A stretch of DNA of 64,000 bases, taken from Bolinopsis microptera. Taxonomy: Eukaryota; Ctenophora; Tentaculata; Lobata; Bolinopsidae. The stretch lies in NCBI RefSeq assembly GCF_026151205.1, contig NC_087077.1, positions 8,857,983 through 8,921,982 of the forward strand, written 5' to 3'. Both the position numbers and the translations under genes were made by a program. Positions 18,798 through 57,600 of the stretch are shown here, piece after piece (position 1 is the first letter of the stretch; every line of letters begins with the position of its first letter). The notes beneath the pieces are model-generated. The model was not told where the DNA came from. It saw only the letters and a program-made list of their open reading frames with translations, and did not search any database.

Positions 18798-20908
18798 ATG
18801 TTTTCTTTCTACTCTCTTCTCCTTCTTGCAGTGGAGATAACTGCTGCTTCAGCCGATGACGGTAAATATTTGTACAATTTTCATGAGTTACTGATTCATT
18901 AAAACTGCAAATCAATAACATCATAATATAAACAACCTTATTATTAATATCTATAGAGGAGTTAGTAAGGTACTGTGCAGTGTGCATGTGAACATATTAA
19001 TATTTTTGGTGATCGCCCTGGTTCATGTTGAGTTGATACTAATTTAACGATTTCGTGCAACAATACGAACAAATAAATTTACTAAAATTGCTCAAACATG
19101 TGTCATTTTATACTCATTTTATATCATACACTTATTGTGAGGCTGATGTAAAATTTAACGTTGACACTGAATGTTTACTAGGCTGGATACCAGTGCAAGA
19201 CACTTCGTGGATACAGTTTGATCTAGAGACATGTCCTCTTGAAATAAAGACGGATAGTATGCTAGGGAGCGAAGATAGAGTAGATGTGTGGTCCTACACT
19301 TCAAACGGAGCCTATGGAGGAAAATTCTACATCCAATTCTTCTCTAGTCCACGGTACCATATCTCCTATTGCAGCTCTTCCACCACTAACTTCCCAACTA
19401 CCCTCCCCTCTGCAGCAGACAAGGTTTGGAGGATAACCCTAACCAGAACCTCAGGTATCAGACTAGTCATACACTGTAACGAGGAGGAGGTGCTCAACAT
19501 CCTGCTGTCAGACTCAACATGTAGTTCCAGTAACTGGAACCAGTACTGGAGCAGAAACATAGGGAATATAGTGTTCTCATCTTATGACAATGCGTCAGAT
19601 TTCTATAGAGCTAAACCAGGTGACTGATTATTATAAACCATTACATTTGTGATATAAACAGATACTGTTTTTATAGTTTCTTAAAAGAATTCTAAAGATA
19701 TGACATTTACTATAATTTGGTGTTTCTTGCCCCTCCACAATTAATAGTGTATTGACTTTTAACTGGCCTATCTTTCTGTTTAACTCTTAATTCTTATCCA
19801 ACTCTTCATATCTTTTATTACACTAACAAAACAAAATGTGGTGGGTGTTTACTGTTTGATTATACTTGATGATGAAAACCATGCTCAATATAAACAGTGA
19901 TTACCGTCTAGAATTATACAGCACAATTCACATGTCAATCAATACTGATCGTTCAATTGTTGGCTATATTTTTCTTTTTTTTCGATTTTGTTAGATAGTC
20001 AAGATTGAAATAATATTTTTTTCTCCAGCAAACTTAATTTTACCCTGTTAAACGATTAGAAACATTCTCAGAACAATATTGTGAAGAATTAAGTGTGAAG
20101 AACGGCACAGTTTCACCCACTGGACCTCAGAGAGAAGGAACAGTTGTCACAGTCACGTGTTTAAAGCCGAAACAATATGTCCTGATGGGTAGGAAGCGAG
20201 TCACGTGCCAAGCAAGTGGGAACTGGTCAGAAACACCGGAATGCAGAAAATGCGGTAAATTTTTATTGATATATGCAAATAGTAACACTGTATTTACTTT
20301 ATTATTTGCAATCTATAGGTCAGTATTTTTAACCCTAATAGCTTACCCTTGTAATTTGTCAAGAGTTCAGAAAATCAAACTAGGGGCGTTTGATTTTCAA
20401 GAACTACTTTTCAAATTTCATTTGTGAGTATTTAAAACGTTATTTAAGAATTTTGTATGTTTTTTTGTTATGAAATTAAAATATATTCTTTGTATTGGTT
20501 GCTGTCTGCGGAAAAATCTCCCCAGTTCAGTTGAATTTCAGGCGGAACGCAGTACTTCTCTTCTCACTTAGATTACATCAGCTGTTCAATAATTACTAGC
20601 TGGTATTAGAAAATATTCTGGATAATTCATAATTACAGTAGCTTGTGTGACAATAAACCTATTGTTACTGGAAAGTAGAAGAATCTTGTCAGATCGAAGT
20701 ATACTATTACCGTGAAATTAGATTAAGGAAACGTTGCATGAGATTTTGTAAAATTAGAAGTGGCCGATTTCTAGGTTAAGGTACAGTAATTACTTCCATG
20801 AAAACATAAAGATCGTAGACGTAAAGAAAATACAATGTGAGGAGTAACATCTGCTGCTCCTGAAACTTCTCCCTTTCTCATGGGAATAATAAAAGTCATC
20901 ATTAACAA
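18798..20908 (+). CDS. Gene C: secreted FAMeT-type - Sushi protein
   Basis: Exons: 18798-18861 (signal peptide MFSFYSLLLLAVEITAAS, phase 1 end), 19182-19619 (FAMeT-type domain, GWIPVQ start, PLEIKT, KVWRITLTRTSGIRL), 20072-20254 (Sushi/CCP with [15 protein letters not shown] start and ECRKCG end) and probably 20842-20908 ([10 protein letters not shown] stalk exon, phase 2 end). Gene B is its closest relative at the 5' end. The Sushi exon is almost identical to the second Sushi exon of gene E. In the stalk exon the AG acceptor used by gene E is not conserved, so splicing must use a poorer AG or the exon is dying. No tail exon is found before gene D. Likely secreted. Start fixed by the signal peptide. 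Confidence 0.78.
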
Positions 20909-27345: not shown

Positions 27346-28320
27346 GTAACAATTAATGTTATATGTTATAATATGTAGTAGTATTGCTATAGCACTAGAT
27401 GGCAGTTCATTGTTTACCAAACACCGGGTTCAGATGACCAGTGGACCGGTACCTGTTTACACAGCTAAAAATTGGGATCAGGGGGCCAAAAGAAGCCTAA
27501 TCAATAGTTGGAATAAACTTAATATCTCATATCATTATCACAATCAGACTTGCCAATCGAGTGAAACTTAAGTTAAAACGTTGTTTTTTTTCACAAGAAA
27601 TAGCCAAATAGTGTAAAAGAAACAAGTGCTCGAATGGCGAGAGTTATCTAATAAACATGGTTAATGGTTATCCGTTAGTTAACGAAGTAACTGTGGGGCT
27701 CATTAGACCTTGTTTTGTTTTAACTGGGACCAATCACCAATTTAGTTGTTCGCACATTGATTGGAATAAATTGTGACTAGTAGTATGCAATTTCAGAGAT
27801 ATTTGTGCTTGCAAGGCCAGGTAAATTACAGTCTTCTGAATAATTATCCTGTTATTATCTCTAAACCCCTTTTATGAGGACAGAAAATATATAATGTAGA
27901 AATTAAAGTTCACAATCAAAGATTAGAGCAATCATCTGTCTCAAATTTGCTATCTCCATCACGTATGTTGTTCTGAACGCACTTGTAAAGGTGAACAATA
28001 CTTTGGTCTCTTCGATATCTATTATCAGATCTTAAGTAAAAAGCCAAGGAGGCTGTTAATCGAAAACCATTTCAAGTTGGTTGGAAATTCACCTTAGTTG
28101 AATGTTTTTGTGACTGTCTTCCTCTAGATAACTGAAAGTTTTGTAACATTATAATAGGAAATTTCAAGCTGAAGCAACACCAGGTCATCTTTGTGATCTC
28201 ATTATGGTCTGTGCCTGTGAGCACGACTGAAACTAGAGGTGAGTCATCTTGTTAAAAACTCGTGCTGTTCAGTCGTCTAGTACACAATATAATTGTGTTT
28301 ATCTGTATATTAAATCGGAA
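27346..28320. other. Intron/5' region; one possible small exon
   Basis: Mostly non-coding. Around 28159-28241 a frame preceded by a weak AG (AATAG) encodes a hydrophobic stretch (KQHQVIFVISLWSVPVSTTE) and ends in phase 1 at a GTGAGT donor. It fits as an optional exon before the gene E domain exon but has no in-frame ATG. Confidence 0.35.
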
Positions 28321-28321
28321 G

Positions 28322-31300
28322 ATGAAATTAGGTGTTATTTTGATCATCGCTATTACAGAGTGGCAGACCGTTGAGAAAGGAGTAAAGTTTGACCATGACT
28401 TGGATGAGGTACCACTGGAAATAAAGTCTAACACCGCTAAAGGGACCCCTAGCAAATATGTCTGGATTCAAGGAACCATAGCAGTTCCTATAAGTGGTCT
28501 TGATGTATTCTCGTTGGCAATAGTAATCAAGGACAACAGCGCATGGTTGGCAGATTGTAACGGCCCAGGTGAAGCATTCTTTGACCCGGAACCAGCAACA
28601 ACTGAAGTTGTTTGGACAGTCTTCAAGACATCTAAAGAGTTGATTATTGAGTGTAACGGAGAGTTTTGCTTGAAGTACACTTACAGTGATTCTGTTAAAG
28701 GAGACATCAAATGCACATCGTTCAACCAACCCTCTATTCAGATGTTCTTTGTGGATAAAAGCGCACAAGCTGCTGAGCAGTACAGAGCATCAGGTAAAAC
28801 TACGTTTGACTTTAAGATGACCTCTTTAAGATCAGAATATTTCTAAGATCTTCTTATTATTATACTCCAGTTACTGGTAGCTGTAAAAAGTCAAACTCTT
28901 TTATATGTCCAATCAATCCCTGATATTTAATTTATTCACATCTCAGATTGGACAGCAGCTATATTAAAAGAAGCCGTTAGCTTTGACATAGAAACAACTC
29001 CACTTCAACTTAGAACTTGGGCAGATAACGACGACTCTCAGCTCTGGATTAAGTTCTCTGACGCCTCAAAAGCGGAAGTGTTCTCGATGTCATTCAAGTT
29101 TAACCAGTTCAGTATCTGGTTAGGCCCAGATTGTAATGGTGGATACGGAGAAGACGGCTTCACAATGACCAACGTTCCACCTCATTTCTACAGAACTTGG
29201 ATTATATTCAAAACACCCACTCATCTGAAGATAGAATGTAATAAAGTTGAAGTTTGGAGCTTTGAGTACACAAGTTTCTCAGATACATGTCATGCTGCCT
29301 TCACCAGAGATTCATCTTATCTTATGTTCGAGAGTGGCAGTACTCCTTCACCAACAATCTTCTACAGATCATCAGGTGAAATACAAAAAGGATCTGTATT
29401 AGGGATGGGGCCATTTTTCTATTGTATAGTAGAAGCTCCTGTTCTTGTACTACAAACAGGTCATGTAAAAACTCTGGAATTTCCCTTATTATAATATCAC
29501 ATTCTTTCAGTAACATGCGACAACCCAACGTTTCCAAACACGGACCTTGACCCTGAGTATCCTCCGATCCCTGGAAGTACACTGGAAGTAAAGTGTAAAT
29601 CTGGTCACGTGAACACAGGCTCTCACACTATCACATGTCTGGAGGATGGGACCTGGGACTGGGAAAAGCAACCTACGTGTCAGACAATAGGTAAACTATT
29701 ACTAATCCTTTCGCGACCCCTCACAATTTAGACCCGGCGGTGTTTTATATAATACAATTTTGAAATTTCGATATATCCGGGGACACAGTCCTAACCCTGT
29801 GGCGCAGCCTGATTTCAAAATTAGGTATCATCATGCTGAATTGATTCAACGGAATCTTTTATTTATGAATAAATTGGAACAAAACAAAGTTTTCAATGTT
29901 GACAATACAATAATTGTATTGTCATGAGGTTACCGATAAAATATTTACTACTATTCTTATCTCTCAGTTGATGGCGGTTGGAGCGAATATGAAGACTGGT
30001 CGGACTGTTCTGTAGACTGTGGTGAAGGAACTCAAACTAGAAGCAGATCTTGTACCAACCCTGTCCCATCAAATGGTGGTGTAGAGTGCGAGGGAGATGC
30101 TAAAGAAACAGAATCTTGTAACACTGATATTTGCCCAGGTATTCAATTTGATGTGGTGAAAAAGTCAATAAAATATACGATGTGTCACACATCATGTGTG
30201 CAAATCTTTGTTTGTTCCCAATCTACACTTCTAATAAGGTAATAATTGAACAGAATCCTTTATCTCTTTATTTATTGAAACAAATGCGAGTTTGCAATGT
30301 TGACAATACCTAGGTTACCGATAAAATATTTACTACTATCCTTATCTCTCAGTTGATGGCGGTTGGAGCGAATATGAAGACTGGTCGGACTGTTCTGTAG
30401 ACTGTGGTGGAGGAACTCAAACTAGAAGCAGATCTTGTACCAACCCTGTCCCAGCGAATGGTGGTGCAGCGTGTATGGGAGATGCTAAAGAAACAGAATC
30501 TTGTAACACTGATATTTGCCCAGGTATTACATTTGTTGTGGTTATATAAAAGTCGATCGAATATACGATGTGTGCAAGGAAATGTTGTAATGTGATACGT
30601 ATTTAAACATAATAGAATTGTTTTCTTTTAACCTCTTAAGCAATAAAATATGCTGCTATTAGAATTATCGCACACATTTCAAGCAATATACTGATCATTC
30701 AATTATTTTTTGCTTAAATGATCATATTAATGATAAATAAACATTAAATTATTTAATAAATATCAAAAGATTTAAAATCAATCTCAGAGCAATCTTGTGA
30801 AGAATTGAGTGTAAAGAACGGTACAGTTTCACCCACTGGACCTCAGAGAGAAGGAACAGTTGTCACAGTCACGTGTTTAAAGCCAAAACGATATGTCCTG
30901 ATGGGAAGGAAGCAAGTCACGTGTCAAGCAAGTGGGAGCTGGTCAGAAACACCGGAATGCAGAAAATGCGGTAAATTTTTTTATAAATTATAATGATTAC
31001 ATTATGTAAACAGTAACACTGTATATTTTACTTCAACAGTATTTCAATGGAAAACTCAATACTTTAAACGTAGTATAGTCCTATAATAACTTACCTTTAT
31101 AATTTGTCAAGAGTTCAGAAAAACAAACTAGGGCCGTTTGCTTTTCATGAACTACTTTTCAAATTTCGTTTGTGAGTATTTGAAACGCTAGTTCAGTATT
31201 TTGTGAAGATGTAAAACTGTTACAAGCACTGCAATAAACGATATCAAAACAAAACACAAATGACGTGATTTAGCCAGGTAAGATAAACTCTAGATTTGTG

Positions 31301-36085: not shown

Positions 36086-36415
36086 TGCTTTACAGAGACT
36101 GTCTAGGATAGTTGACAACATGATACATATGTTAACATTACAAATATTCCAATTACCCAATGGCAGATGGGAATTGACTAACTACAAAAGTTCAAGTTAT
36201 AGGTGGTGGGAATCAACCAGTGGCTCAAAGGTAAGTTTAGCCGCTGGAATCAACTCAGAAAGATCAGAAAAACCGAATAAAGTCATGTGATACAAAAAAC
36301 ATTACCCACTACCCAGTAATGTGGTAACGAAAATAGTCCAAAATTATTTGAAATCTCTTTATTTTTATTAAGTTTTAATACTTTCAACACTACTATATAA
36401 CAAATAATTTGAGGT

Positions 36416-37387
36416 ATGACACCCGGAGATATGACACGATCAAGAGATGTCATGAAAAGTCCAGTGAAGGTAGATATGACAGCGGATAATGGAGAAATTG
36501 AAGAAGAAGAAGATCGTAGCTGTGAATGTAGAAGATATATTGCGGAGGAGTTTTCTTTGGCATGTGCAACTTGCGACATGTACTGGCACTACTGCTGTGT
36601 TGGGCTTACTGGATTAACGCAGGAAGAAGGTAACCACTTGACTAACTGGCGCTGCCAAAATTGCTTTATCTCTCCCCACATCAAGGGCACAAGAAGCCAG
36701 TCCACAAATCCAGACAGTGAAGAAACCAAGACCCTACGGAATGTTATTAGAGAAGAACTTGGTGCCCTTACTCCGTGTATTAGAGGAATTGTCGAAGATT
36801 CTGTGAGTCATAACAGTTCTTCTAATGATTCATCTGAAAAACCAAAAGAAATCACAAAAATTGTGAACCAGGCTTTCCAAACCTGGGCAGATGTTACTGC
36901 AAATAGTCAGAAGAAAGTTATTGAAGAAATGAGCCTACAGCAAGCTTCTCAAAGTGTTGTCAGTAAAGTTCAGTCAAAGATGCACACTGATGCATATGAG
37001 CGAAATTTAAGAAAGCTCAATCTGTGTGTTTTGAATGTACCAGAGAGCAAGAAAACTAACTCCAAGCTACGCCAGGAAGAGGACTCGAAGTTCTGCAAGG
37101 AGACACTAAAGATTGAAAAAAGTGACTTTATCAGTTGCCATCGTGCAGGTAAAGTGGATCCAGGTAAGCCAGACTCCTGTCGGCCATTGATCATCCAGAC
37201 AGCTGACGAGGAGTCAGTTAACTATTATTCCAACCATGGCAAGGGCTGGAAAGAGTCATCATACTGGATAAATCTGGATCTCTGCAGAGCAGACCGAGAG
37301 ATCCGTTTTTTAGCCAGAGAAGAGAGGAAGAAGAGGCGGGAAGAAGCAGAGAAGGAAAAGACAGAGAAGAAGGTGGAGAAGAAGTAA
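36416..37387 (+). CDS. LINE ORF1 with PHD-type zinc finger
   Basis: 323 residues from an ATG. Residues ~36-85 form a PHD-like finger (CECRRY..., CATCDMYWHYCCVGL, W-R-C-x-x-C). The middle is polar and probably coiled coil (~95-190). Residues ~200-300 resemble the RRM-like RNA-binding module of LINE ORF1 proteins (LNLCVLNVPES, CHRAGKVDPGK, RPLIIQ, NLDLCRADREIRFL). The C-terminus is a Lys/Glu run. In CR1-type elements ORF1 binds the element RNA, and the PHD may guide chromatin binding (inference). The gap to the endonuclease frame is 29 bases. The frame is intact. Confidence 0.8.
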   Translation: MTPGDMTRSRDVMKSPVKVDMTADNGEIEEEEDRSCECRRYIAEEFSLACATCDMYWHYCCVGLTGLTQEEGNHLTNWRCQNCFISPHIKGTRSQSTNPDSEETKTLRNVIREELGALTPCIRGIVEDSVSHNSSSNDSSEKPKEITKIVNQAFQTWADVTANSQKKVIEEMSLQQASQSVVSKVQSKMHTDAYERNLRKLNLCVLNVPESKKTNSKLRQEEDSKFCKETLKIEKSDFISCHRAGKVDPGKPDSCRPLIIQTADEESVNYYSNHGKGWKESSYWINLDLCRADREIRFLAREERKKRREEAEKEKTEKKVEKK

Positions 37388-42020: not shown

Positions 42021-43375
42021 TGCTCGAATAGATCGATTAGTCTACTGATTTGACGTTGCAAATATTTTGATAAGAGCTTAAATATCATCAAAGAAACTGC
42101 CTCACATGTTCCAAAACACCACAGAAGGACCTAGACTCGACCTAGATGGTTTAGCACTGAAATCAGCAATTGATCATGCTAAAACCATTGGTGGTAATAC
42201 CTCTGCTCAGCCAATTCCTTGGTGCTTCTAATTCTCTGTAGATTAAAGTTGGACTTTCCCTAGAGTGTGACATTCACGCAAGTGTGAGATGGACTTGTGA
42301 CATTTTGTAATGCAATTCAAGTTCTTTTGTTGCTTGATTGGACTCTCATGCCCATTTATTACTAAAATTTTGGTCAAATGGGCATGGGCATTGCCTTAAG
42401 GGGGCATATACCAAAAATGTCCAACCCAAATGACCTGATAGGAAGTTCAGTAGCCATCTAGCGCACCGTTTCCATACCAACACATTTTTTTGAGAATAGC
42501 TATTTCTGTAATCGATCATTTCCTGGTTAATGTGCATTTTTCGGAAAAGCACGATTTGTTTTGTTGAGAGGCTATAAGTGAATCATTTCTTGTGATGTAG
42601 AGCTGAAATGTTGCACGAAGTTTATTCATATCTTGTTCAAGATGTGTGCAAAATCTTGATATCGTATCTGAAAAGGCTGCGTTTTTATAAATTTTTGAAA
42701 GTCAAAAAGTGGTAATTTTACTTTTCATGCTTGTTTTGACCAAAAATTCCGTCAAGGAACATCAGATTTTTTTGATGCTTAACATGAATTCTGGTGCAGT
42801 TCTTAAAGCCCTAAAAAATGTGTTTATTCAACTGGAAATTTGATCTTTTGGACCTCAAAGTCATACAACAAACTTAGGCATATTTTTCGTTTTTCATATA
42901 TTTACAAATTTTTCTAAAATTTCGATCGGAATGTGCTAGAGACTTCTGGAAGAGTGCAAAATAACCGCAACTAGCACATTTATCTATGAGTTATGAATAA
43001 CAAAACACCTTAAAATGCTTTCTTTTAAAGTTATGGTAGAAAGTGTGATTTTTTGGCTTCGCAGATTTTTTTTTATTGAAAATCTTTTCAAAATAGTACA
43101 TACATCAATGTAATTGCATGAAAATAACACGGTCAAAAAGTGATTTCTATGTACTATAATGACGGGAAACCAGAACGTAGTTCGTGCAAAAATTACACCT
43201 ACAAAATATGGTCCCTAACAAAACATTTTATACAATCGACACATATAAATGTAAGATATATTAGTAATAGAGATGATTGTGCAATAATAAAATACAGCGT
43301 GCATAAAATATCATAATGTTAATAATTTGTTAACTTTTTAATGAAATAGATTATATCATACAATACTTTTAAAAA
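42021..43375. other. No gene seen
   Basis: AT-rich spacer before the second LINE, without supported exons. Short inverted words around 42350-42390 (CCCATTT...AAATGGG) do not build a clear element. Confidence 0.4.
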
Positions 43376-45205
43376 CCCAACCCACAACCCAACCCACCCC
43401 TAACCCCTTAAATAGTTTGGATCGGTTATTTTAGATTAGAGAATTGGCATTGGGAGAAATGAGATGCATCTAATCATTATCAGACAGGTAGAATTCAGCG
43501 TGACTATCGTTTGGATCTGTGGGTAGCATTTCCGACCATAGGTGATCCTTAAGTTTGGCCTTGAAGATATCAGGACAGCTATGGTCTCTTATTTCGAGAG
43601 GAAGTTTATTCCAGAGCAGATGTGTCCGATAAAAGAATGATTTCTTAAGGAGACTGCTATTACACTGTGTTTGAACAAGAGTCGTTACATAACTTAGGCT
43701 GTCATGGTGACATGATCTTAAGCGTGTGCTTCCTTTGTATAGTTGTAAGTAATTAGGAAGCTCTTGTGTGCATACACCATTGACTATTTTGTGAAACAAG
43801 GTCAGGTCATTCAATTCAAACCTCTTGCTGAGAGGAAGGATTTTCAATTGATGACATTTGTAAGTATAGTTTTCAAAGGACTGATAGCTTGTGAATTCCT
43901 CATCAAAAATCCACTTAATACACCTTTTTTGAAAAGCATCCATCTTATCTAGTTGTGTTTTATTAAATGGACGCCAGATTTGGGAACAGTGTTCAAATTG
44001 ACTTCTAACAAGTGCAAGGTATAAATTTCTTCTTCGTCTCTCATCTTGGACAAATGAGCAAGTGCGTTTCAGCAGCCCAAATTTTTGGTTAGCTTTGGAC
44101 AATATTTTAGTTATGTGTTCTTCAAAACGAAAGCCCTGATTTATAACGACTCCAAGATCTGTTTCCGTACTGGTGTAATCTAAGGGAGTATTACCGAGCA
44201 AATATTGAAATCTGATAAATGGAATAGGTAATATCCTACTGCTGAATTTCTTTCCAGGAATAGAGAGGACTTTACACTTTGATGGATGGAATTGCATCTT
44301 ATTTTCTATGCTCCAAGAATTAAGTTCATTTATGTTATTCTGAAGTTTGCAATAATCGTTGTATGATTTAATAGGACTCCATATTTTCGTGTCATCAGCA
44401 TAAAGTACCAAATTTGTGCCTGAACTTAATCTCATGGGAAGATCGTTTATGAATAAGACAAATAGAATGGGACCTAGGACGGAGCCTTGAGGAACTCCAG
44501 ACAAAACAGGTTTGATCTCTGAATGTCTACCATCAACTAAAACACATTGTTCCCGTTCACCAAGATAGTTGGTTAGGAATTTGAGTAGCCTTCCTTCAAT
44601 ATTAAAGACGAGTTTAAGTTTCTTAAGAATAAGATCATGATTTACAGAATCAAAGGCTTTAGCAAAATCAAAGTAAATGATGTCTACACTTATAGTCGAA
44701 CAGTCATTGAGGGATAGCGTGACACTGTCAATAAAGTTAATCATATTTGTGGTACAAGATCTGTCTCCAAGAAATCCATGCTGTCTATCATCAAGAAGAT
44801 GCATTGTTTTATTCAAGAGTTCCTGTTTAATAAGGCGTTCAAATGTTTTCATTATAAGACTAGTTAGGGAAATCGGCCGATAATTCTCAATGTCCTCCTT
44901 ACTACCCTTCTTGTGAACCGGAACTACGTGAGCCAGCTTCCATTCAGTTGGAATAATACCGGAGTTATATGATATCTCAAATAAAATTGAAAGTGGGCAA
45001 GCGAGACTACCAGCACAGTTCTTCAGTATCTTACCATGGATACCGTCAGGGCCGCAAGCTTTGTTAGAATTAATGTTCCTTAAGAGATGTTTTATATTCT
45101 CTGCACAGAAAGTTAAGTCGAATTCAGTATCACTTCTCCAATCAATATCAATATCATACTTAGATTCGTCAGAAAATTGTTCTGAGAAATACTGATTGAA
45201 CATAT

Positions 45206-46657
45206 TTGCTTTGTGATGTCTTCTTGGCCAGTGAGTACTTCAAAAATCTTGAAAAGGACTATTGCGAAGACTTACTGACTGACTCAACGGAGGCACTGAG
45301 ATGGCTTGAAGTATGCAATGAAGTTGAAACAGACAAACGAGCCCTCCGAGCTTTCACTTTCGACTTCAAAGCTCTCTACGACTCATTAAACCCTGAACTT
45401 GTCAAGGAAGCCGTTCATCATGCAATGAATACCACCAGACCAGACTGGACACCAGCACTCTGTGATTGGCTGGTCGACCTCGTTGATATCAGTCTAAGAT
45501 CCTCTATTGGATGCTTCGAAGACAAGTGGTACGTCCAAAAGAACGGAGTGCCTACAGGTGGAAGTCTGTGTGTGCAGTTGGCCAACATAACTGTATTTTA
45601 TGTAATGAACAAATGCGTTTACAGTAACACTGACATGATGAAGAGAGTCAGGACTGTAAGACGGTACATTGACTATGGTGCAGGTTTCTTCTACAGCACT
45701 GAAAGGAAATTTGACCAGTGGATTTCCGATGTAAACAAATCCTTGAAAGAATATGGGCTACTCATTGACGAATCCCAATGGAAGGAAGTTGGCACGCCTG
45801 TGGCTTTTCTAGATATCGAGTTTTGTTTCGACCCTGAGGGAAACTTACAAACTGACCTCCATATCAAGGAAACAGATTCAAGGAGCTATCTACATTTTAG
45901 CAGTGCACATCCAAACCACATCTATAGTGGAATAGTTTACAGCCAGTGTATCAGACTCAGGAGAATAATCAACTCACAAGAACGACTGGAAACCAGATTG
46001 AGTGAATTAAGCCAAGCATTCAAGGCAGCTGCTTATCCCTCAAAAATGGTGAACAACATTAGCAAAAAAGTTCTCAACTCAGAAAGAAACCTTGAACGAA
46101 GACCTCCCAAGGACAACACACTAAAGCCAGAGATCCTACCAATAAGGGTTGTCTCAACCTACGGAAGTGACTCTGACATTGTCACCACAGTGAAAAAGTA
46201 TGAGGAGAACTTAAAGAAGACCAGAAGTTTTTGTAACCTGAGTGACTCAAAACAACAGAGTAACACCCTTGAAGAAAAGAAGAATGGCAAAAAGTTCTTC
46301 CAATTTGTCAAGAAAACAGGAAGCAACCTCAAAAGCCGGTTGGTTAAGGTGAAAGAAATAGCTCTGGGGAATAAGCATGGTCAAACAAGGCCGTGTAGAA
46401 AGAAGAACTGTGCAACGTGTGAGTCTATTGATAGTGCTACACAAATCAGCATCAATGGGAAACGGGTAAAACCAGCACCAGGTACATGCATCACTTACAA
46501 CATCATATATTTGATCAGATGTAAACTGTGTGAGAAACCATACGTAGGCAAATCCACCAGAATGCTACGGGTAAGGTTTGGCGAACACAGAAGAGCATTC
46601 TACAAGATCATCAGTGGGCAAAAGGTTGACACGGATGATGACTCCACCTCCATATAG
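45206..46657 (+). CDS. Penelope-like RT + GIY-YIG endonuclease, 5'-truncated
   Basis: 483 residues, with no ATG at the start: the frame opens with TTG inside the target duplication, because the element is 5'-truncated. Order: RT palm with FTFDFKALYDSL (motif A, first catalytic Asp at ~53), KNGVPTGGSLCVQL (motif B), RRYIDYGAGFF (motif C at ~152-162), thumb (RLRRIINSQERLETRL), a Lys-rich linker, then a GIY-YIG nuclease module (IIYLIRCKLCEKPYVGKSTR, VRFGEH). RT plus GIY-YIG is the hallmark of Penelope elements. The second Asp of the motif C pair is Tyr (codon 45674-45676), which should abolish polymerase activity. Confidence 0.9.
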   Translation: MLCDVFLASEYFKNLEKDYCEDLLTDSTEALRWLEVCNEVETDKRALRAFTFDFKALYDSLNPELVKEAVHHAMNTTRPDWTPALCDWLVDLVDISLRSSIGCFEDKWYVQKNGVPTGGSLCVQLANITVFYVMNKCVYSNTDMMKRVRTVRRYIDYGAGFFYSTERKFDQWISDVNKSLKEYGLLIDESQWKEVGTPVAFLDIEFCFDPEGNLQTDLHIKETDSRSYLHFSSAHPNHIYSGIVYSQCIRLRRIINSQERLETRLSELSQAFKAAAYPSKMVNNISKKVLNSERNLERRPPKDNTLKPEILPIRVVSTYGSDSDIVTTVKKYEENLKKTRSFCNLSDSKQQSNTLEEKKNGKKFFQFVKKTGSNLKSRLVKVKEIALGNKHGQTRPCRKKNCATCESIDSATQISINGKRVKPAPGTCITYNIIYLIRCKLCEKPYVGKSTRMLRVRFGEHRRAFYKIISGQKVDTDDDSTSI

Positions 46658-47098
46658 AGCATGGACTGACTCAGAAGGAAAATTTTAACAATAGTGTTTC
46701 AGTGTGTATCCTAGAAAATTCAAGTCCTAGTAGTTTAGATGTTAAGGAGCACCGATATATACATGCCTTAAATTCCCTCCGCCCCTCAGGAATGAATAGT
46801 ACAAACCCTTTTAAGATTCCTTTATTGCACAATTGATTTTTATTTTGCCTGAGGGGCTTTCCATAAATTATTTTTTAAAAATAATTGGTCCTTTTATTGA
46901 TGTTTCATATTTCACGGCAGTTTCCTTTTCAGAGTTTGAGTTTATATTTAGAAACTAACCATACTATCTTTTAGATTTATGTCACTTATGATGGCTCCGG
47001 CTGAAAGTACTATGACTCATTTTATCTAGAAGATTGTAGTTTCATTGCTTCTGAAGTAGCTATCAGTTCGCCGGTCAATGTTGGGTATAATACTCTTG
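45215..47098 (+). mobile_element. Penelope-like element inserted in the CR1-like LINE
   Basis: Flanked by the 13-base direct repeat ATATTTGCTTTGT at 45202-45214 and 47099-47111, which occurs once in the uninterrupted LINE. The 1,884-base insert contains the RT/GIY-YIG frame and ~440 bases of 3' UTR. It lies antisense to the LINE. Confidence 0.92.
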
Positions 47099-49140
47099 AT
47101 ATTTGCTTTGTCTAATGGAGATTCTCTGTATGTTTCTCTAAGGTACATCCTATCCGGTATTCTTGAATTCTTTGAAGAGGATTTTACATGCGACCAGAAT
47201 TTCTTTGAGATCAATGCAGGGTCATCATCGTTATATAGATTATCGTTCATCTTCTGATCAGATAGATTTTTGAACTGTGTTCTTAGTGAGCAAAACTTAA
47301 AATAATCCTTTTGTTGGCCGGTTAGTTTCCACTTTTCATGAGCTCTTTTTTTCTTCAAGTATGCCTCATGGGCCTCTGAGTCAAACCAGGGATTTCTATA
47401 TGCTAACTTTAAAGTAATAGTTGGGATATGCTTTGAGATACTTTTCGATATTACAGACTTTAAGGCAAGCCAACAATATTCAGGATCTCCTAGCTTTAAA
47501 AACATAGCATTCCAGTCAATAGAATTCAAGTCTTCGTTAATGGCCGTCCAGTTTGCCTTCTTAAAGTTGAGAATCTTTCTTTTAGGACATTTAGAATAAG
47601 TGATTTTTGTAGCAACTTTAAAAGCTATTGGATAATGGTCAGATTTGCAAGCACCGTGACCCTTCAATACCGTAAGATCTCTTACTAAATTTTTACAATT
47701 ACTCAAAAGAAGGTCTAGTATGTTACCCTTAACATGTGTAGAACTACTTATACATTGATCTAGATCAAAGTTATGGAATGTTGTAATGAAGTCCTCTTCA
47801 ATTAAACTAGAAGGTGTAACAATTCCGTCCTCAGAAAACCAATCTACTCCATTGAGATTAAAATCACCAACGATGAAAAGTTTTTTAGGGCGTTTGCTTG
47901 AGTAGAAAGACTTGATTGTACTGGCAATACTTTCATGGTTTACTGTTCCTAAAGTTCCGACTCTGTAAACCACACAAAAAATGTATTTACTTTCACCTAT
48001 GTTTATTTCAATAGCGGCCATTTCGGACCCCTTACGTACAGACAGTCTTTTGATTTCAGCTTGAATATCAGATCTGATTGCTATCAAGACTCCTCCACCA
48101 TTTTTCCTATATTTTTTCGGATTGTTATCATCAGGTGGATGTGATACTTTTGAGCGATCATTTCTAAATACTTCATAGTTAGAGCTTTGAATGACCTCTC
48201 TATCCATTACAGAGTTTTTAAGCCAAGTCTCTGTAAGCAGAATAACGTCAGGATGTGAATCTTCAATATGTGCATTAAGTTCATATATTTTGGATTTATC
48301 AAGATGAGGTTGCTTACTGTTAAGTTGAGAAAACGGTATCAAGCCTTGAACATTCTGATAATAGACTGATATGTGATTAGGGCCGGGATTAAGCATACTA
48401 GGGTTTGATATTGCAATAAGCAAGAAGTTTAAGGTCAATAGAAGTAAAATCGACATACTCAGAACTTGCCTAGATGTGCTAGTTACTGCACCAAACACTA
48501 TATTAGCGGCAGTCAGCCTTTCAACTCGGTATCTCCGACTGAGTCTTTGGTACTGAGTAAAGATGAAGTTCTTAATTGCAAAACCAAAGATATACAGGTA
48601 TGCACAATTAATATGAGACACAAGTGGGAAGGCCTTACTGGTATTAAAGTAGAATCTACTGGGATGAATAAACCTATCAATCTCATTGGACTCTTTCGAG
48701 CTTGTTAAAATCATACCAATTAGACAAAACATGATGAACAAGTGCAGAACATAGATACCAATGTTAGATGGTCTAGAATTGAAGATAAGTGCATCTTCAA
48801 ATATCCTAGTCCTGATATCCGATCCAAACCTAACCCCCCTACCCCAAGCAGAACTATCCACTTGACAGGAATTCTTTGGTGTCAAAAATTTAATTCAAAT
48901 GTAATTTAAAATATGCATACAGCCTACCAGTATGAACCATTGGGTTGCACCCTGGCAATTAAAAATCATTTGTGTTAATGAAAACATATTTCAAAATTGT
49001 TCAACCCTGAATTGACTCCATTACCGCAGCACAGTAGGTATCAAATTTTTAATTGAATTGCGGTTTAGAAACCAAGAGGATTGAACCATTTTGAATGAAT
49101 AATAAATATGTAGAATCTTGCAAGAACACCCATGCCTTTA

Positions 49141-49502
49141 GAGGTCAATATTTCCGGGACTACTACCTCTCTGTCAATGACATATTCGACAACCAACACA
49201 TCTCCACCATTGTCAACTTTACAAACCACACTAAACGCTTAGTGGTGCCAGAGGAGTTGGACCAGACAGGTGTAACATAGCGACTACTTTAACGCCGTCT
49301 TATTTCGCCTCTCTCTTCCACACTCAACCACCACTTAAGCGTTTATCTATGACACACTTACCATCATCCTTGATTACACATCTTGATTCCACTGGCATCC
49401 TCCCACAGGACTGCCATACCCCAGAGGTAGGCAAAGCATTCATATGCTATCCTCTCGTGGGCCTACCAGGCCCAGCCTCTCTTAAAAAAAAAAAAAAAAA
49501 AA
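49141..49502 (+). mobile_element. Poly(A) retrocopy inserted in LINE ORF1
   Basis: A ~360-base insert ending in ~18 A residues, flanked by (A)CCCATGCCTTTA at 49128-49140 and 49502-49514. This is typical of LINE-mediated retrotransposition. Its first ~140 bases read as the last ~46 codons of an unidentified protein (ending ...VVPEELDQTGVT, stop at 49278-49280), so it is probably the 3' end of a host mRNA. A hairpin TGGGCCTACCAGGCCCA precedes the A tail. Confidence 0.82.
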
Positions 49503-50779
49503 CCCATGCCTTTATTATTTGGGTGAATATCAAAACGCTGTTTCTTAGTGTCAAAATGCGGGAAAAGTCTCGTGTTGATGCAGCCCCTAGCATCCAAGAA
49601 AGCAGGAAAGATATCTAAGAAATAATGCCTATACCGGGAGCACATATTGTAAATCAGATTGTTCATTCGAATAACATTTCTCTCAGTAAATTTACAACCA
49701 TTAGGATTAATTGGAGGAACAGATTGAAACCATACTTTTGCAGTTGGAAGTATCAACTTTATGGAACTCATTAAACTAGATACCGCACTTTTAAGATGTG
49801 CTATTCCATTATCACAGTACCGTATATCATTAGTACCAACAGACACAAATAATTTAACAACTTCTAAATTAGGGTTATCTTTCACGAATTTCTCGATATC
49901 TCTCTTGACCTTATCAAGTTTACTGCCTCCAACGGCGATGTTCTTAACTATTTGCTTATTCTTTCCTAACAATTTTTCATCTAATCTAGCAGCAAAAGAG
50001 TCCCCAGCAACAAGAACAATCTTCTGCTTTTTCGTGACTTGTTCATTGACTTGGGATAAATCCACTTGATCCTCTTCAGGAGGTTTAATCTTACGGAACG
50101 AGAGACTAAAACGTACTTGTTCATTTTCACCGACAACATTACCAGAATAAACTGCATGTCTCATTTTAGATTGAGCACCAGGTTTCATAATGTTCATGGT
50201 TTTATCAGTGGCTGGTAGCACATGATCAGGACTATCGCTGTTTTTATTACTATCAAGAACGATTGAAAGTTCTCGTGGTGCACCTAGTGAAACAGTACAA
50301 ATTGAGCTAGTCTGAGATATGAGTGGCTCGTTATCACGATGGAGTCGGAGAGTAGACTTGCTCGATGCATAACGAGTTATCAGGCAGGAGTCCATATCAC
50401 CAGATGTTGAAGGGTGATTGTTAACCACTTCCATGAGCTTGCAAAAATTGGGGTAATCGTTTATAGGAATTGGTTTGTTCATAACATGACCATAGTTATA
50501 AGAATGAGTGGTCGGACTAAGCCACTGAGTAGTGACTGGACGACCCCTCTGTTTTAAGTTAAGAGAGTCAAGCTCTTTTCGGAGGTCATCACAAAGGGTT
50601 TTGTCCAAGTTAAGGTCGTTAACATGTTCAACAAGGGATACAATGTCATCAGACGAGGCAGTAGATTCTGCAGCAGACTCAGAAGCAACGTCGAGGGTTA
50701 GGGCTTCCAACATTGCACGTTTTTCAGCTAGAGTGGCTGTTTTGAGAAGATCGACGAACACTTTGGGTAATTCTTGCAT
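49463..50779 (-). CDS. LINE ORF1: AlkB-like dioxygenase + SGNH esterase fusion
   Basis: 438 residues from an ATG; the last ~12 come from the inserted retrocopy. Residues ~1-75 are helical and acidic. Residues ~85-232 form an AlkB-type 2-oxoglutarate/Fe(II) domain: LRLHRDNEP (metal ligands H147, D149), SLGAPREL (~164-171), RHAVYSG (third ligand H208) and RFSLSFRK (R223 and R229, the 2OG-binding pattern). Residues ~253-420 form an SGNH/GDSL esterase domain: VAGDS (S261), a GG block (~284), VGTND (N317) and DIHP (D417, H419). Esterase-type ORF1s are known in CR1/L2 LINEs. A joined AlkB domain is not an architecture I know as standard. Before the insertion the frame ran on ~18 further codons to a stop at 49067-49065. 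Confidence 0.88.
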   Translation of the reverse strand: MQELPKVFVDLLKTATLAEKRAMLEALTLDVASESAAESTASSDDIVSLVEHVNDLNLDKTLCDDLRKELDSLNLKQRGRPVTTQWLSPTTHSYNYGHVMNKPIPINDYPNFCKLMEVVNNHPSTSGDMDSCLITRYASSKSTLRLHRDNEPLISQTSSICTVSLGAPRELSIVLDSNKNSDSPDHVLPATDKTMNIMKPGAQSKMRHAVYSGNVVGENEQVRFSLSFRKIKPPEEDQVDLSQVNEQVTKKQKIVLVAGDSFAARLDEKLLGKNKQIVKNIAVGGSKLDKVKRDIEKFVKDNPNLEVVKLFVSVGTNDIRYCDNGIAHLKSAVSSLMSSIKLILPTAKVWFQSVPPINPNGCKFTERNVIRMNNLIYNMCSRYRHYFLDIFPAFLDARGCINTRLFPHFDTKKQRFDIHPNNKGMGFFFFFFKRGWAW

Positions 50780-51601
50780 TGTTTGTCGAAGTAGGACGCC
50801 AGGTGATCAAGGGGCAGATCAGGAGTACAGCAGTGTCGGCAGGACAACTATCAGTGATCAGAGACCTGGGAAATAAAAGGGCCGAGCAGATCATGTAAAT
50901 AAAAGGATCAATGACAAAAGAATGAGAGTGAAGGGAGATCTATGTAGAGTAATAGTTAGTAATGAAAACTATCAATCAAAATGTAAGTGAGCTAGAAAAT
51001 TGGAAATTGAATAAATGAAGTTAGAAAACTGACCTTGTTAAGATTTCAGAGATGTCCCAGCCAAGCTGGGACAGAGAATAAAAGACTGCCGTACACCGCT
51101 ACACTGCCTCACTACCCCCGTCTCAACCCGGGACACCGGCTGACTTTACTCCAGCGACATTCTGTCCACGAGTGGACCCATCGTCTTAGCCATGCCTAAA
51201 TTATTTGTTATATAGTAGTGTTGAAAGTATTAAAACTAAGATTAAAATTAAGATACAAATAGAATTATTATTATTATTACTATGGATTAAAATATATATA
51301 CTAATTGTTGCGTGGGAGTGAGAATTCCTCTACCATGCCTGTCATGCTGTGATGGAAGGAGTCAAAATATCCTCCTCGTTGGAAAAACCACTTTGGGCTT
51401 TGACCAATAATTTAATTCATTTTCTGACCCAAGTTAAAAAACTGTCTTGCCTTTTAACCTGTGGTTTAGAGAAAGAAATTATTTGTGCCATAAATTAGCA
51501 ATTGTTTTTTCTTCTAATTAATCAAGACAAATATTTTTTCAATTAAATGCAACTCAATGATTTAGGTAATAGAAAAGTTCTTGAAGTAGGGTCGTAGGGA
51601 G

Positions 51602-54600
51602 ATGCCCCTGGCCCTTTTTAGGTCAGAAAAGACACCTCAGCAAGTAAGTATTAACTAGAGACTATTTTACAGATTAATGATATGTTTCATTGTTTCGGGT
51701 TAGATTAATACTTAATTGGGATGATATCGTTGCAGGTTTTATTCTATTCGACAAGATTTTGATATCATTACTCTTGTGGATAATTAACTTGCTTTGTTGA
51801 TGATTTTATCTCTTTGTTGATGATTTTATCTTTATATTCGAATGTAAAGGATTACATCACCATTTTAAAAATTCTTGAAGTACCATTACTAACGTAGCAT
51901 GTTTTCAGCTTGTGCAAAATTTGAAGTCGGTTCTTACGCAGCTTGTAAAAGAGCATGAGCAAGGTGAACAGGCTAATGCAAAGAAGCTTGAGAAGGTTTG
52001 TTGGATTTATAATTGACACCAAATTTGCCCCTATTCAGATGAATAGAATTGGTATTTTTAGTATACATGATCCAAGTGATCGTTAATCGTTATTACCTAT
52101 ACTAGGATACAAGGATACAAGGATACAAGGATACAATGATCACCTTGAAGTCAACCTTGTCACTTATGTCTTCCCTGTGCACTTGAACCAAGATAATTAT
52201 GTTTAATGAGCATGCTTATAGAAATACATTTAATTTATTTAAGCAGATTTACACTGACTGTAATCATACTGTTACTGTTTAAAATTATTTAAAATTATTT
52301 AAAATCAAAGTTGTAAATTCAAGTTAAGTGTTTATCACATGAATTTCAGTAATGATATAAAGATGGCAAAACATACCAGCTGCTAAGTAACAGTAACATT
52401 ACGTCAAAGGTATTAAAACACTGTTTGTCACATTCTTAATAGCATACACATCTTTCAGATAAACGATGACGTCACAAAGTACCTGTTGAACACGAAACAT
52501 GCTCTCATGGGGACCCCCGGTATGTTGTAACGATATTCTGTGTTTTATGTGCTTAACATTATTATACATAGCTTGCTTGGTGCAGGGCAAGAGGTTCAGC
52601 AGTTGTAAAGGTTACACTTGAATGACTTAAGTTTGTTTGAATCTATAAATAGATATTATGTTTACCTTACTCGGGATTATTACGACGGGTTTATTAACGA
52701 CCGGTTAAAATATGGTTCGGGAAAAATATGGCGAAATTGCTCAAAACCCACCACATTTTCCCGGTCGCCATTTTACCGGTGTCCAACCTTTCAATTTTAG
52801 ATTCAAAAATTTTGTCTCAGATGTAAATTTCCTTATTAGAGATAAGCAAGTTTAAAAATTTTCGCATTGCTAAAACTTGTGAAACAAGTCGAATTATCAA
52901 TAATTGTTGAAAGTAGACAGAAATAATGACTCGTGGTTAATCAAACTAGATGGAAAATAATTTGTAACATTTGAAGCGTAACAACCAGATCTTATCTTAC
53001 TATATATAAAGCGAGACGATATATATATGTGTATATATCCATGCCATTTTACTGACACCACGGCATCAACTTTAACGCGACTTTCTGCAAAAACCGTAAA
53101 AGATATACAACTGAAACTTTTTTGACTGGGTCAAATGCTTTAATGGCCTTCAAATCAGCATGAAAAAATAAAAAATTGGCCAAGGAATAAGAATTTTAGT
53201 ACCCAAAATTTGGACTCCCAAGTGGTGTCAAAAACGCGATTTAAATAGGTAATAATTATTTCAGTCTCTTTTACTTTATACTCTTGACACCATTCGTTAT
53301 TAAGGCAATATTATCTGCACAAATCAGCAGACACAAATGAGTATAAAAACCAATATCTATTTACAAACTACAGCTACTACTATACATGGAAATGTGCCGT
53401 CGCTAATTATTGAATCTTATCTTTTTATACATAGCTGATTAGATTTTCAATGCATGTAAAACTATGCACTTACTGCAGTACAATATTGTTTCGACTCCAA
53501 AGTAGTGTGCTGTTTTTTGCACATGGGGGCCAATTGAAACAAAAATACGATTTAGAACTGGCAGATGCTGCTGCCACTGGCGGAAGCGCTGCCCAAATTT
53601 CAAATTTCACACTTGGTATGACTAAAATGTTTATGGAAATTTGAACTAAAAATGAAAATATAATGCGAGATAATATTCAAAAATTATGTATTGCGTAGTA
53701 AATGTTATTATGAAGCGGAAGAGAGATGGTAATGACACTGAGAGGCCTACTACTCTTATTTTAGAGGAGGAAGACCCACCTATACCGTGCTCATCTAGCA
53801 CACCTCTGCCCCGAAGTGAGGAAGGTGAGCAATATTTGAATTTTTTAATATTACTTTCGTTTTGTCTTTAAGCTGAAGCTTAGACGTTGATTTATAAAAT
53901 GTTAATATAAAAACTGTTCAGGACGAGAGTTCGACTTTCCCAATACGTTAAGTCCTGTCACTGGTACTACTGCTAGAGATCGTCTTAGGGCGAGAGGTCG
54001 CCCCAGAGAAATAAGAGGTCTTCCCGGAACTAGAGGTCGTCCTAGGGGTCGTTCTAGAGGTCGTCCCAGAGGATCAACTACAGCAAGATCTATTGCAGCT
54101 CTGTTATCAGGTTCATAAACATTAAAATAGGGAATATTTTGAAATTTCGTAAAATATAACTCTATAAGTTTATTTTTCTAAGTCAGAAACTGAAAGTATA
54201 TACTGAGTATTTTTTTTCAGACAAAAAGCCTATAAAAAGAAAACGGGAGTCTGATCAGGAACGTGAAAAACGTTTGAGTAGAGACAGAAAGAGGAAGCAA
54301 GAAAAAATCCTGAATGAGTCTCAGGAAGAGCGAGACCACCGGCTGGAGATGTTAAAAAATAGTCAAGCCATCAGAATCCGGAATGAGTCTCAGGAGGAGC
54401 GAGATCATCGGCTGAAGATGAAAGCAAACAGTAAAGCCATCAGAATCCGGAATGAGTCTCAGGAGGAGCAAGACCACCGGCTGGAGATGTTAAAAAATAG
54501 TCAAGCCATCAGAATCCGGAATGAGTCTCAGGAGGAGCGAGACCATCGGCTGGAGATGTTAAAAACCAATCAGGCTGTCCGACTGGCAAACGAGTCCTTC

Positions 54601-57600
54601 GAAGACCGACTTGATAGGCTGTGTCTCTATTCAGACAACCGCGATCATGTAAAGAGAATGGGCCCCACTAAAAGTTTTCATGATAGTCAACAACCTGGTC
54701 CTGCATTCCCGAACCTGCTTACAGTTTCACGTTAGTTCCGATTATATTTGTAGTTCAAAACATTTTTGATATTTTCAACATTTAGGGAACTGGTAAGTAT
54801 AGCTTTTTAATAAGGCTAATAATGAATAAGCCATGATTTGTTTAATGTAGCCTGTAACGTTTTCTCCTTCAGCGGAAAATTGTGAACCTTCCTGCAAGCG
54901 AACTCGGAGAAGCAACGTTTCTATACAGTCAACCGATTCCAATTTAGATCTTACTTTAAATTTTCCTCATCCTGCTCAGCAAGAACGCCCCAACTCTATA
55001 TTAGGTCAGTAATACTGCGTTATATAAACGATGTACTCGAGCAGGTTATTATTAAGTATAACGGTTGTAATTATTACTTGATAATACGTAAATTATCAGA
55101 GATAATTATTTCAGATGACAGTGAAACTACTAATCTGTCCCTCTCTGATGATAGTAGTGATGATAGTAAGCACCCTTCCAAACGTTATCGACGAGATTTT
55201 CCAGTTGCAGTTGATATATCTCCAAATGCTATAAGAGGTGATTTTAAAAGTTTAGTTACTAATGCTTGATTGTCGTATTTTTGAATCATGCTGCAAATGT
55301 AGAAATAGTCGTTCCAAATACCAAAATTTTAAAACTTTTCAACTTTTAGGTCGCCAGAGAACAAGAGGTGGGTTTGGTCGCAAATCCAAACGAAGTCCAA
55401 GCCTTTCTAGAACCCCAAAAAACTCATCGAGAAACCGACCGCGGACCAGGGGAACAAGAGGACGGAGACGCCAACGTCGGGGGTATCCATCACATGCCAC
55501 AAGAGGAATGAACAGATTGGGGTTTAGAGGGCGAACTGGGAGAGCTTGGTTTAATCTAGCGTCAAAAATACCTGTTGACGAGTTCGATGAAACAGAACTT
55601 CCAGAGGAGTTTTGCAACACTTTTGAAGGGTCAATCAGGGATTATACATGTGATCATTGTAATGCATACTTCTGGAATAATGAAAACAAGAACACATGCT
55701 GCAGCGGAGGGAAAGTGAAAATGCCACGCTTACCACCAATTCCAGAACAGTTTCAGTTATTATTTGATGTTAACGGATCCCATTTCCTCAAAAATGCTCG
55801 AGCGTATAATAATCTTTTTGCCTTGGCATCACTTGGTTGTGGGCAAGAAATTAAACATCAGGGGTTCAGCCCGACATTTACCGTTCGCGGTAAAATCTAC
55901 CACAGAATCGGCAGCTTATTGCCACAAGATGGTGAAAGCCCGAAATTTGCTCAACTCTATTTTCATGATACTGACCACGAAACCGGAAACAGGATGGAAA
56001 TTATGAGCTCTTTGGATCAGCAGACGGTTGAGCTTATTCAAGATACGTTACATGAATGCAATCCCTACATCTGCTCATTGAAGTCTGGACTTGAACTAAT
56101 GCGCATTTCGCCTGATGTTAAATTAGTTTTGCATGCCGATGAACGACGACGGCCATCTGATGCCCATGCACGAACATACAACCTGCCAACAGCTTCAGAG
56201 GTCGGTGTACTTTTGCCGGGGGAAATCATTGCGAATATGGACGTTATTTTGCACGAGAGGGGAGGTGCAGTAAGAAGGATCAGTCCAGTTCATCGGTCAT
56301 ATGATCCATTACATTATGTTATTATGTTTCCAAAGGCGATGATGGCTTTCAGGTTGGGCCATGAAAAGATCTGACAATAGGACCTTAACGGCTTCTGATT
56401 TCTACTGTTATCGGATGCAGGTTAGGGACGACTGGAACTCAGTAATGAAATACAGACGTTTGACGCAGCAGTATGTGTGCGATATGTGGGCAAAGATTGA
56501 GGGTAGCCGCTTAGATTGGGTACGGCATAACCAGAAAACAATCACAGGCTGAAAAATATAATGGGCTCATAGATGCTCAGGCGGACAATGATCTGAACAA
56601 TGCAGGAAAGCGCATTATATTACCTCCTTCTTTCTCTACGGGTCGCCAAGGTACTATCGTGAACGCTTCCAAGACTCAATGGGAATTGTTAGAAAGTTAG
56701 GGAAGCCAGATCTGTTTGTAACGTTTTACCTGTAACCCAAAATGGAAAGAAATACAGGAAGCATTGGAACCAGGAGAATCATACACTGATCGGCCCGATC
56801 TTTGCGCTAGAGTTTTTAAATTGAAGTTGAATGCTTTACTCAAAGACATATGCTTAAACAAAGTCTTTGGAGATATACGGGGCTATACTGCTACCGTCGA
56901 GTTCCAGAAAAGGGGATTGCCTCATATTCACATTGTTGTTATTCTCGCAGATGAGTTCAAACCTCGCACACCAGAGGATGTTGATAAGATAGTTTGCGCA
57001 GAGATTCCAGATCCTCAGACTAACCCTCGGCTGCACAAGATTATAACAACCAACAATGTACATGGACCTTGCGAAACATTAACAGGAACTCACCGTGTAT
57101 GGTTGGCGAAGGTGCTGACAAGAAATGCTCCAAGAAATTCCCGAAGGAATTTGTCAGCAGACACAATGCTAACCCAACACAGCCCTCCTGTTTATCGGCG
57201 TCGATCACCAGAAGATAGAGGACAAGTTCATAGGGTGAATATGGGAAGTGAAAGCAATCCGAACTTTTTCCTGCTTGACAATTCTTGGGTAGTACCCTAT
57301 AGTCCACTTTTATCGTTAATTTACGAAGCCCATATAAATGTTGAAGTGGTATATTCAACAAGGTGTGTGAAATACCTTTTTAAATACATCAACAAGGGTC
57401 CAGACAGAGTAGTTGCAGCATTTGAGCAGGAGGATGAAGTTGAGACATATGCCAACGCTCGCTACCTCTCAGCTTCCGAGGCTCACTGGAGACTGTATGG
57501 GTTTTGACCTTTTCCATAGAAGTCCAGCAGTAATGAAGCTTGACTGCCATTTGGAGGGAGAGCAGATGCAGTTATTTGCTGAAGGGGAGGAAGAGGAAGC

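Follow-up and report, generated by a model that had tools for sequence, protein, structure and literature searches.

A 64-kb stretch of the genome of the comb jelly Bolinopsis microptera (contig NC_087077.1, positions 8,857,983 to 8,921,982; "the window" here means this whole stretch) raises the question of what an AlkB-type 2-oxoglutarate (2OG)/Fe(II) dioxygenase is doing inside a retrotransposon. The element is a long interspersed nuclear element (LINE) whose first open reading frame (ORF1), listed as 438 aa at 49463-50779, lies on the minus strand, which the original prediction that drew attention to the frame had left unstated. The first ORF of this multi-copy LINE encodes a predicted AlkB-type dioxygenase joined to a predicted SGNH esterase; the fusion is real, and the addition of AlkB to an esterase-type LINE ORF1 is new. 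The element would likely use the fused protein to repair the copies it makes of itself or to free them of marks. If so, a transposon-borne demethylase, translated as one protein with an esterase, would make host control by RNA or DNA base marks, and the element's counter-defence, directly testable in an animal. Helitrons with the same pair of domains provide an independent comparison, and the leaders at the 5' ends of the LINEs point to an RNA form that is copied.

The fused frame and its two domains

The claim that AlkB and SGNH motifs share one LINE ORF1 reading frame was borne out. H147, D149, H208, RFSLSFR with R223 and R229, and SLGAPREL are all present, as are the SGNH blocks GDS (residues 259-261) and GTND (315-318), but the last block, given as DxxH, reads DIH (D417, H419), i.e., DxH. 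The C-terminal residues of the frame as listed (GFFFFFF...) are also foreign to the element: they belong to a 361-bp insertion with a poly(T) head, and native ORF1 sequence runs to about residue 430. From the N-terminus (all coordinates on the minus strand), residues 1-43 (50651-50779) comprise two helices by secondary structure prediction, and our guess is that they might serve in dimerisation. They are followed by the dioxygenase domain (residues 44-234; 50078-50650), with the HxD iron motif H147-R-D149 at 50333-50341 and RFSLSFR, from R223 to R229, at 50093-50113, and then by the SGNH/GDSL esterase domain (residues 249-432; 49484-50035), the last few residues of which are changed by the insertion.

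A Pfam search of the window ORF1 returned the GDSL domain alone (PF13472, 1e-11), with PF13532 not matched. PF13532 was above its cut-off in nine of the ten database relatives given and in all eight other own-genome frames, which had themselves been picked by a PF13532 search. As a single sequence, the AlkB domain of the window ORF1 gave a weak match to ALKBH3 (E 0.0056), and as a profile it gave a strong match (5.7e-15). Structure prediction, the check proposed with the original prediction, produced the double-stranded beta-helix of AlkB, so the feared outcome, a fold with no jelly-roll around HxD...H, did not arise; the nearest solved folds were those of the DNA-repair enzymes ALKBH2/3. The AlkB piece alone, used as a query, found 16 relatives that were 50-97% identical to it and among which no name indicated a cellular AlkB, and an alignment scan of genome-contig and viral-contig collections yielded 35 and 45 pattern matches, respectively, with no confirmed relatives.

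Conservation was followed in an alignment of 139 rows (the window ORF1, 18 further ORF1s from its own genome and 120 database proteins), from which the loci L012 and L014 were left out because their ORF1s are cut; alignment A1 comprised the window ORF1 and 65 of the 120 proteins (147 database relatives were found), and A3 comprised 51 of 71 rows. The iron triad HxD...H together with the RxxxxxR arginines (H147, D149, H208, R223, R229) was intact in 126 of the 139 rows and partial in four; in rows with a letter at the position, H147 was kept in 133/136, D149 in 135/136, R223 in 133/138 and R229 in 138/139. The five catalytic residues had conservation values of 0.964-0.993, against a mean of 0.555 for the AlkB domain and 0.20 for the linker, and their columns ranked 3, 5, 7, 10 and 17 of 191. 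A chance motif match was ruled out, as none of 100,000 random five-column sets was as conserved, and the five-residue conservation was seen again in a second lineage. The acidic residue after HxD (E151, giving HxDxE) is common to ALKBH2/3. In the esterase, S261 was present in 138/138 rows with a letter, N317 in 137/137 and H419 in 126/129, while the full set of S261, G285, N317, D417 and H419 was intact in 95 of the 139 rows, changed in 34 and partial in 10, with losses mainly at D417 (kept in 97/130).

LINE ORF1s with an esterase domain form the known Type IV (PMC4120745), and its own esterase domain places the window ORF1 in that type. The closest precedent is zebrafish ZfL2-1 (PDB 4c1b; PMC3905857, PMC4120745), in which an SGNH domain in ORF1 likewise precedes an endonuclease-reverse transcriptase (RT) ORF2, and whose structure was matched by our profile at 2.2e-6. 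In ZfL2-1, a coiled coil and an arginine-rich motif are described and no dioxygenase is named; for the window ORF1, two N-terminal helices are predicted. Neither of the words AlkB and dioxygenase occurs in PMC3905857 or PMC4120745, and the 2014 survey placed esterase ORF1s in two vertebrate groups only (PMC4120745). Esterase activity or lipid binding was shown for ZfL2-1, and by analogy with what was proposed for it, the SGNH domain here may tether the particle to membrane lipids (PMC3905857). A retrotransposon with its own AlkB has a parallel in orchid Ty3/Gypsy elements carrying a 2OG-dependent dioxygenase (2-ODD)/AlkB frame, for which N6-methyladenosine (m6A) RNA demethylase activity was reported in vitro; those, however, are plant long terminal repeat elements with an m6A-type AlkB in a separate extra ORF, and the available text mentions no SGNH fusion (PMC9289625). 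Fungal DNA transposons, including Helitrons, carry 2OG dioxygenases proposed to counter silencing, but these are of the TET/JBP type, a dioxygenase family other than AlkB (PMC12730594). The AlkB of plant RNA viruses is similarly a 2OG dioxygenase within an RNA replicon, although the replicon differs, and several plant-virus polyproteins were among the structure matches. ALKBH2/3 share the fold, HxDxE, the downstream H and RxxxxxR with the window domain, but they are cellular genes with RVNLTFR, whereas the element frames have RxSxxxR. The architecture had been offered as one not known to have been described, and open-access titles and abstracts held no AlkB in a LINE ORF1 among the matches listed, a scope outside which subscription papers, supplements and Repbase lie.

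Sister copies, distant lineages and Helitrons

The whole LINE copy spans 43066-51237 on the minus strand, with its 5' end at 51237 and two later insertions inside, as delimited by blastn against the sister loci L010, L011 and L013. In the main blocks it is 98.8-99.8% identical to them, and a single 214-bp block at the 5' side matches L010 at 93.9%. Because the ORF1 frame lies within repeat copies that are approximately 99% identical, the possibility that it is a cellular gene near a LINE was rejected. The catalytic motifs of ORF2 had been described as intact, which is not so for the window copy as a whole: the endonuclease part (47026-48885; PF14529 1.1e-9, PF03372 6.7e-8) and the RT part (43470-45203; PF00078 1.1e-30), both on the minus strand and both still recognisable, stand in two frames with a 1.9-kb insertion between them, and 57 bp were lost at the ORF2 start as one deletion in a global alignment. 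The splitting insertion (45215-47098) has a 13-bp target duplication and overlaps a Penelope-like RT frame on the plus strand (45206-46657; RVT_1 1.7e-4, under the cut-off) with a tail that is GIY-YIG-like by eye. The 361-bp insertion that clips the ORF1 C-terminus (49141-49501) has a poly(T)/poly(A) end and also a 13-bp target duplication; it resembles a short interspersed nuclear element in make-up, and searches for tRNA and Rfam matches within it found neither. The window copy, with ORF1 ended early and ORF2 both truncated at its start and split, is therefore disabled.

Its relatives are in better condition. In L010, L011 and L013, ORF1 (445-446 aa) and ORF2 (1142-1189 aa) are both open, as they are in L016, L020, L021, L025, L026 and L027 of other families, and the ORF2s of L011, L020 and L025 have endonuclease and RVT_1 domains. 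A search for further fused copies with ORF2 downstream had been recommended with the original prediction, and with these the idea of a one-off chimera falls, since the sister copies keep the AlkB domain. An ORF1 followed by an endonuclease-RT ORF2, multiple copies and A-rich 3' ends together mark the element as a LINE, and its RT region is 31% identical to that of a PHD-type LINE in the same window. The window ORF1 had at least 106 matches in its own genome, a lower bound from scoring 96 of 773 candidates, and eight of these, the window copy included, were of the same family (at least 97% identity), six of them (again with the window copy) with an alignment that covers at least residues 1-432. 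The near-identity of the sister copies suggests that they are young. Loci L007, L008, L029-L031 and L049 lie outside the examined set.

The genome has at least 151 AlkB matches, and the AlkB and SGNH pair recurs in distant LINE lineages and, in reversed order, in Helitron frames. Loci L045, L047 and L048 each cover part of a long frame that contains AlkB; in the first two, SGNH is followed by AlkB, and L048 spans the AlkB part alone. The L045 frame contains PF13532 (4.2e-21), DUF6570, Helitron_like_N (1e-7) and PF13472 (7.5e-6, under the cut-off), and among the matches listed, the genome has 41 to Helitron_like_N, of which six agree with an AlkB match in contig, strand and length of the open frame; Helitron frames with SGNH then AlkB are found at C10:16875843-16880669 and in five further frames. 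A tree of 25 AlkB rows united the window LINE family in one clade (99/99) and the Helitrons in another (100/99), both apart from three host-like genes, with weak deepest forks (32/32). In the LINE-like L040, as in L046, the AlkB of ORF1 is followed by a long region and then by an SGNH-like end; the L040 AlkB, on a long branch, joined the host-like genes (92/87), and going by that position its type of AlkB may be a separate capture. The next frame of L038 matched no Pfam family, and that of L043, on a cut stretch, matched zinc fingers only.

Selection on the domains was estimated from the ratio of nonsynonymous to synonymous substitution rates (dN/dS), with LINE ORF1 pairs limited to 55%-97% identity. 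L020 compared with L021 (80% aa identity) gave 0.17 for AlkB, 0.11 for SGNH, 0.10 for ORF2 and 0.35 for the linker. AlkB also gave 0.17 in L034 and L035, of another lineage, where dN was greater for SGNH (0.436) than for AlkB (0.239) and the dN/dS of SGNH was not scorable, dS being too high. In the Helitrons L045 and L047, the ratios were 0.18 for AlkB and 0.16 for SGNH, which puts both domains under purifying selection in this pair, whereas adjacent parts of that frame gave 0.59 and 0.94. This contrast is the clearest indication that selection maintains AlkB as a protein.

Host leaders at the LINE 5' ends

The LINE copies start with AGTTTTAATACTTTCAACACTACTATATAACAAATAATTT and a short AG-ending tail. 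In the window copy, a terminal copy of the spliced leader SL1 at 51196-51237 (minus strand), followed by the 5' untranslated region, matched the SL1 exon with 40/43, the best of 30 shuffles reaching 14. SL1 opened 14 of the 20 copies compared (scores of 32-43 of 43; shuffles no higher than 18), from which L014 was left out, and another three (L010, L022, L024) had an exact copy of the 28-mer of SL2, a second leader, so that 17 of 20 carried one or the other. L017 and L019 have a third leader-like 5' sequence (AGTTTTAAACTATTTTCACAACTACAATTAAATACATTTATTTAG in L019, similar in L017), and L018 alone among the 20 had no leader at its 5' end. Within the window family, L010 has SL2, and L009, L011, L012, L013 and the window copy have SL1.

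Both leaders belong to the host. A tandem gene with a 591-bp period has SL1 as its exon, followed by a GT donor and, by eye, an Sm-like site, and this SL RNA gene matched Rfam SmY under its cut-off; a second array is linked to 5S rRNA, and SL2 precedes a GT donor in another tandem array, of 434-bp period. The leader arrays are at C3:13511055-13533415, C5:21341875-21352049 and C1:14490812-14549183. The SL1 26-mer had 1268 exact places in the genome, and its reversed control none. A similar leader is known from another comb jelly, Hormiphora (PMC8527503). In 12 pairs picked by hand among the matches listed, a further AlkB frame is preceded on its own strand by SL1 or SL2 at a distance of 711-768 bp. 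The host leader at LINE 5' ends implies, as evidence from DNA, that trans-spliced RNA is the form that is reverse-transcribed.

LINEs of several families start with a copy of the host leader, including the PHD-type LINE at 36416, which is opened by one at 36385-36410 (plus strand). In L009, L011, L016 and L025-L028 the copy ends in TTTTAG, a form with 38 exact places in the genome, compared with TTTGAG in the SL gene, and TTTTAG|G could be a potential splice acceptor for the next round.

Possible substrates, and neighbouring features of the window

ORF1 proteins coat the RNA in other LINEs, and ALKBH2/3 have roles in substrates of the N1-methyladenosine (m1A) and 3-methylcytosine (m3C) type. 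On our preferred reading, the LINE would be transcribed and receive a leader by host trans-splicing, and its ORF1 protein would coat the element RNA, bringing a 2OG demethylase onto that RNA and the nascent complementary DNA, where the AlkB domain would demethylate bases of the single strand bound by the protein, with Fe(II), O2 and 2-oxoglutarate as its requirements. E151 in HxDxE, as in ALKBH2/3, would favour m1A/m3C-type substrates, with m6A possible too, and seven MT-A70 matches on three chromosomes represent m6A-writer-type genes in the genome. That the AlkB part removes methyl or alkyl groups from the RNA of the element itself and from its newly copied DNA is given a probability of about 0.55.

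Several observations weigh against it. At least one AlkB catalytic residue is changed in nine of the 139 rows, and at the middle of RxNxTxR the three host-like genes, like ALKBH2/3, have N, while S stands there in all 21 element frames that showed the motif and in 124 of the 139 rows of the wider set. In the group of L015-L019 and L027, the constraint on AlkB is weaker, since its dN/dS (0.28-0.45) exceeds that of SGNH (0.06-0.24). According to the abstract of an L1 study, the eraser ALKBH5 suppresses L1, so element RNA could gain from m6A. Lastly, Helitrons, which have no RNA genome, bear the same AlkB and SGNH pair, and because of this an RNA-only role for AlkB looks too narrow; the Helitron cases speak for a function on single strands or on DNA in addition to RNA.

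If AlkB instead acted mainly on DNA, it would repair alkylated single-stranded intermediates or remove a mark (N6-methyldeoxyadenosine or other) at the element or the target site. The ALKBH2/3 folds, the Helitrons above, which move as single-stranded DNA, and the TET/JBP enzymes of fungal DNA transposons (PMC12730594) all favour this; we nevertheless think it unlikely, though deserving of serious attention, as the LINE AlkB is located not in ORF2 but in ORF1. That ORF1 is the RNA-coating protein elsewhere, and that RNA is also a substrate of ALKBH3-like enzymes, likewise tell against a purely DNA function. It is less probable still that AlkB is a non-catalytic nucleic-acid-binding module replacing the RNA recognition motif of other ORF1 types, given the near-invariance of its five iron/2OG-site residues in two lineages. 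A protein or a host RNA (tRNA, leader cap) might be the target rather than the element's nucleic acid: tRNA or proteins are the substrates of some AlkB relatives, and since the copies carry the host leader, the LINE RNA would bear the leader cap. No result points to such a target and E151 matches ALKBH2/3, making this a long shot. The brokenness of the window copy might suggest a dead fusion without function or a one-off chimera, but this was refuted by the genome copies and purifying selection, along with the database relatives, and we give it practically no credence.

A wider and more tentative proposal, for which we judge the odds to be somewhat unfavourable, is that AlkB with SGNH forms a general survival cassette for mobile elements in comb jellies, assembled at least twice (AlkB-SGNH in several LINE lineages, SGNH-AlkB in Helitrons), which would erase host-laid or damage-derived methyl marks from the single-stranded nucleic acid of both RNA- and DNA-borne transposons, with the RNA hijacking the host leader.

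The window itself contains Helitron remains on the plus strand at 54274-57507 (PF14214 2.1e-19 at 56764-57507), near which there was no AlkB match among the matches listed; a repeated ESQEERDHRLEM segment lies upstream of them. A Pfam search of the plus-strand frames beginning at 13183 and 28262 gave no match, and by pattern these two frames (13183-13878, 28262-28846) and a third at 19055-19627 share PLEIK, with two of the three also having GWIPV.
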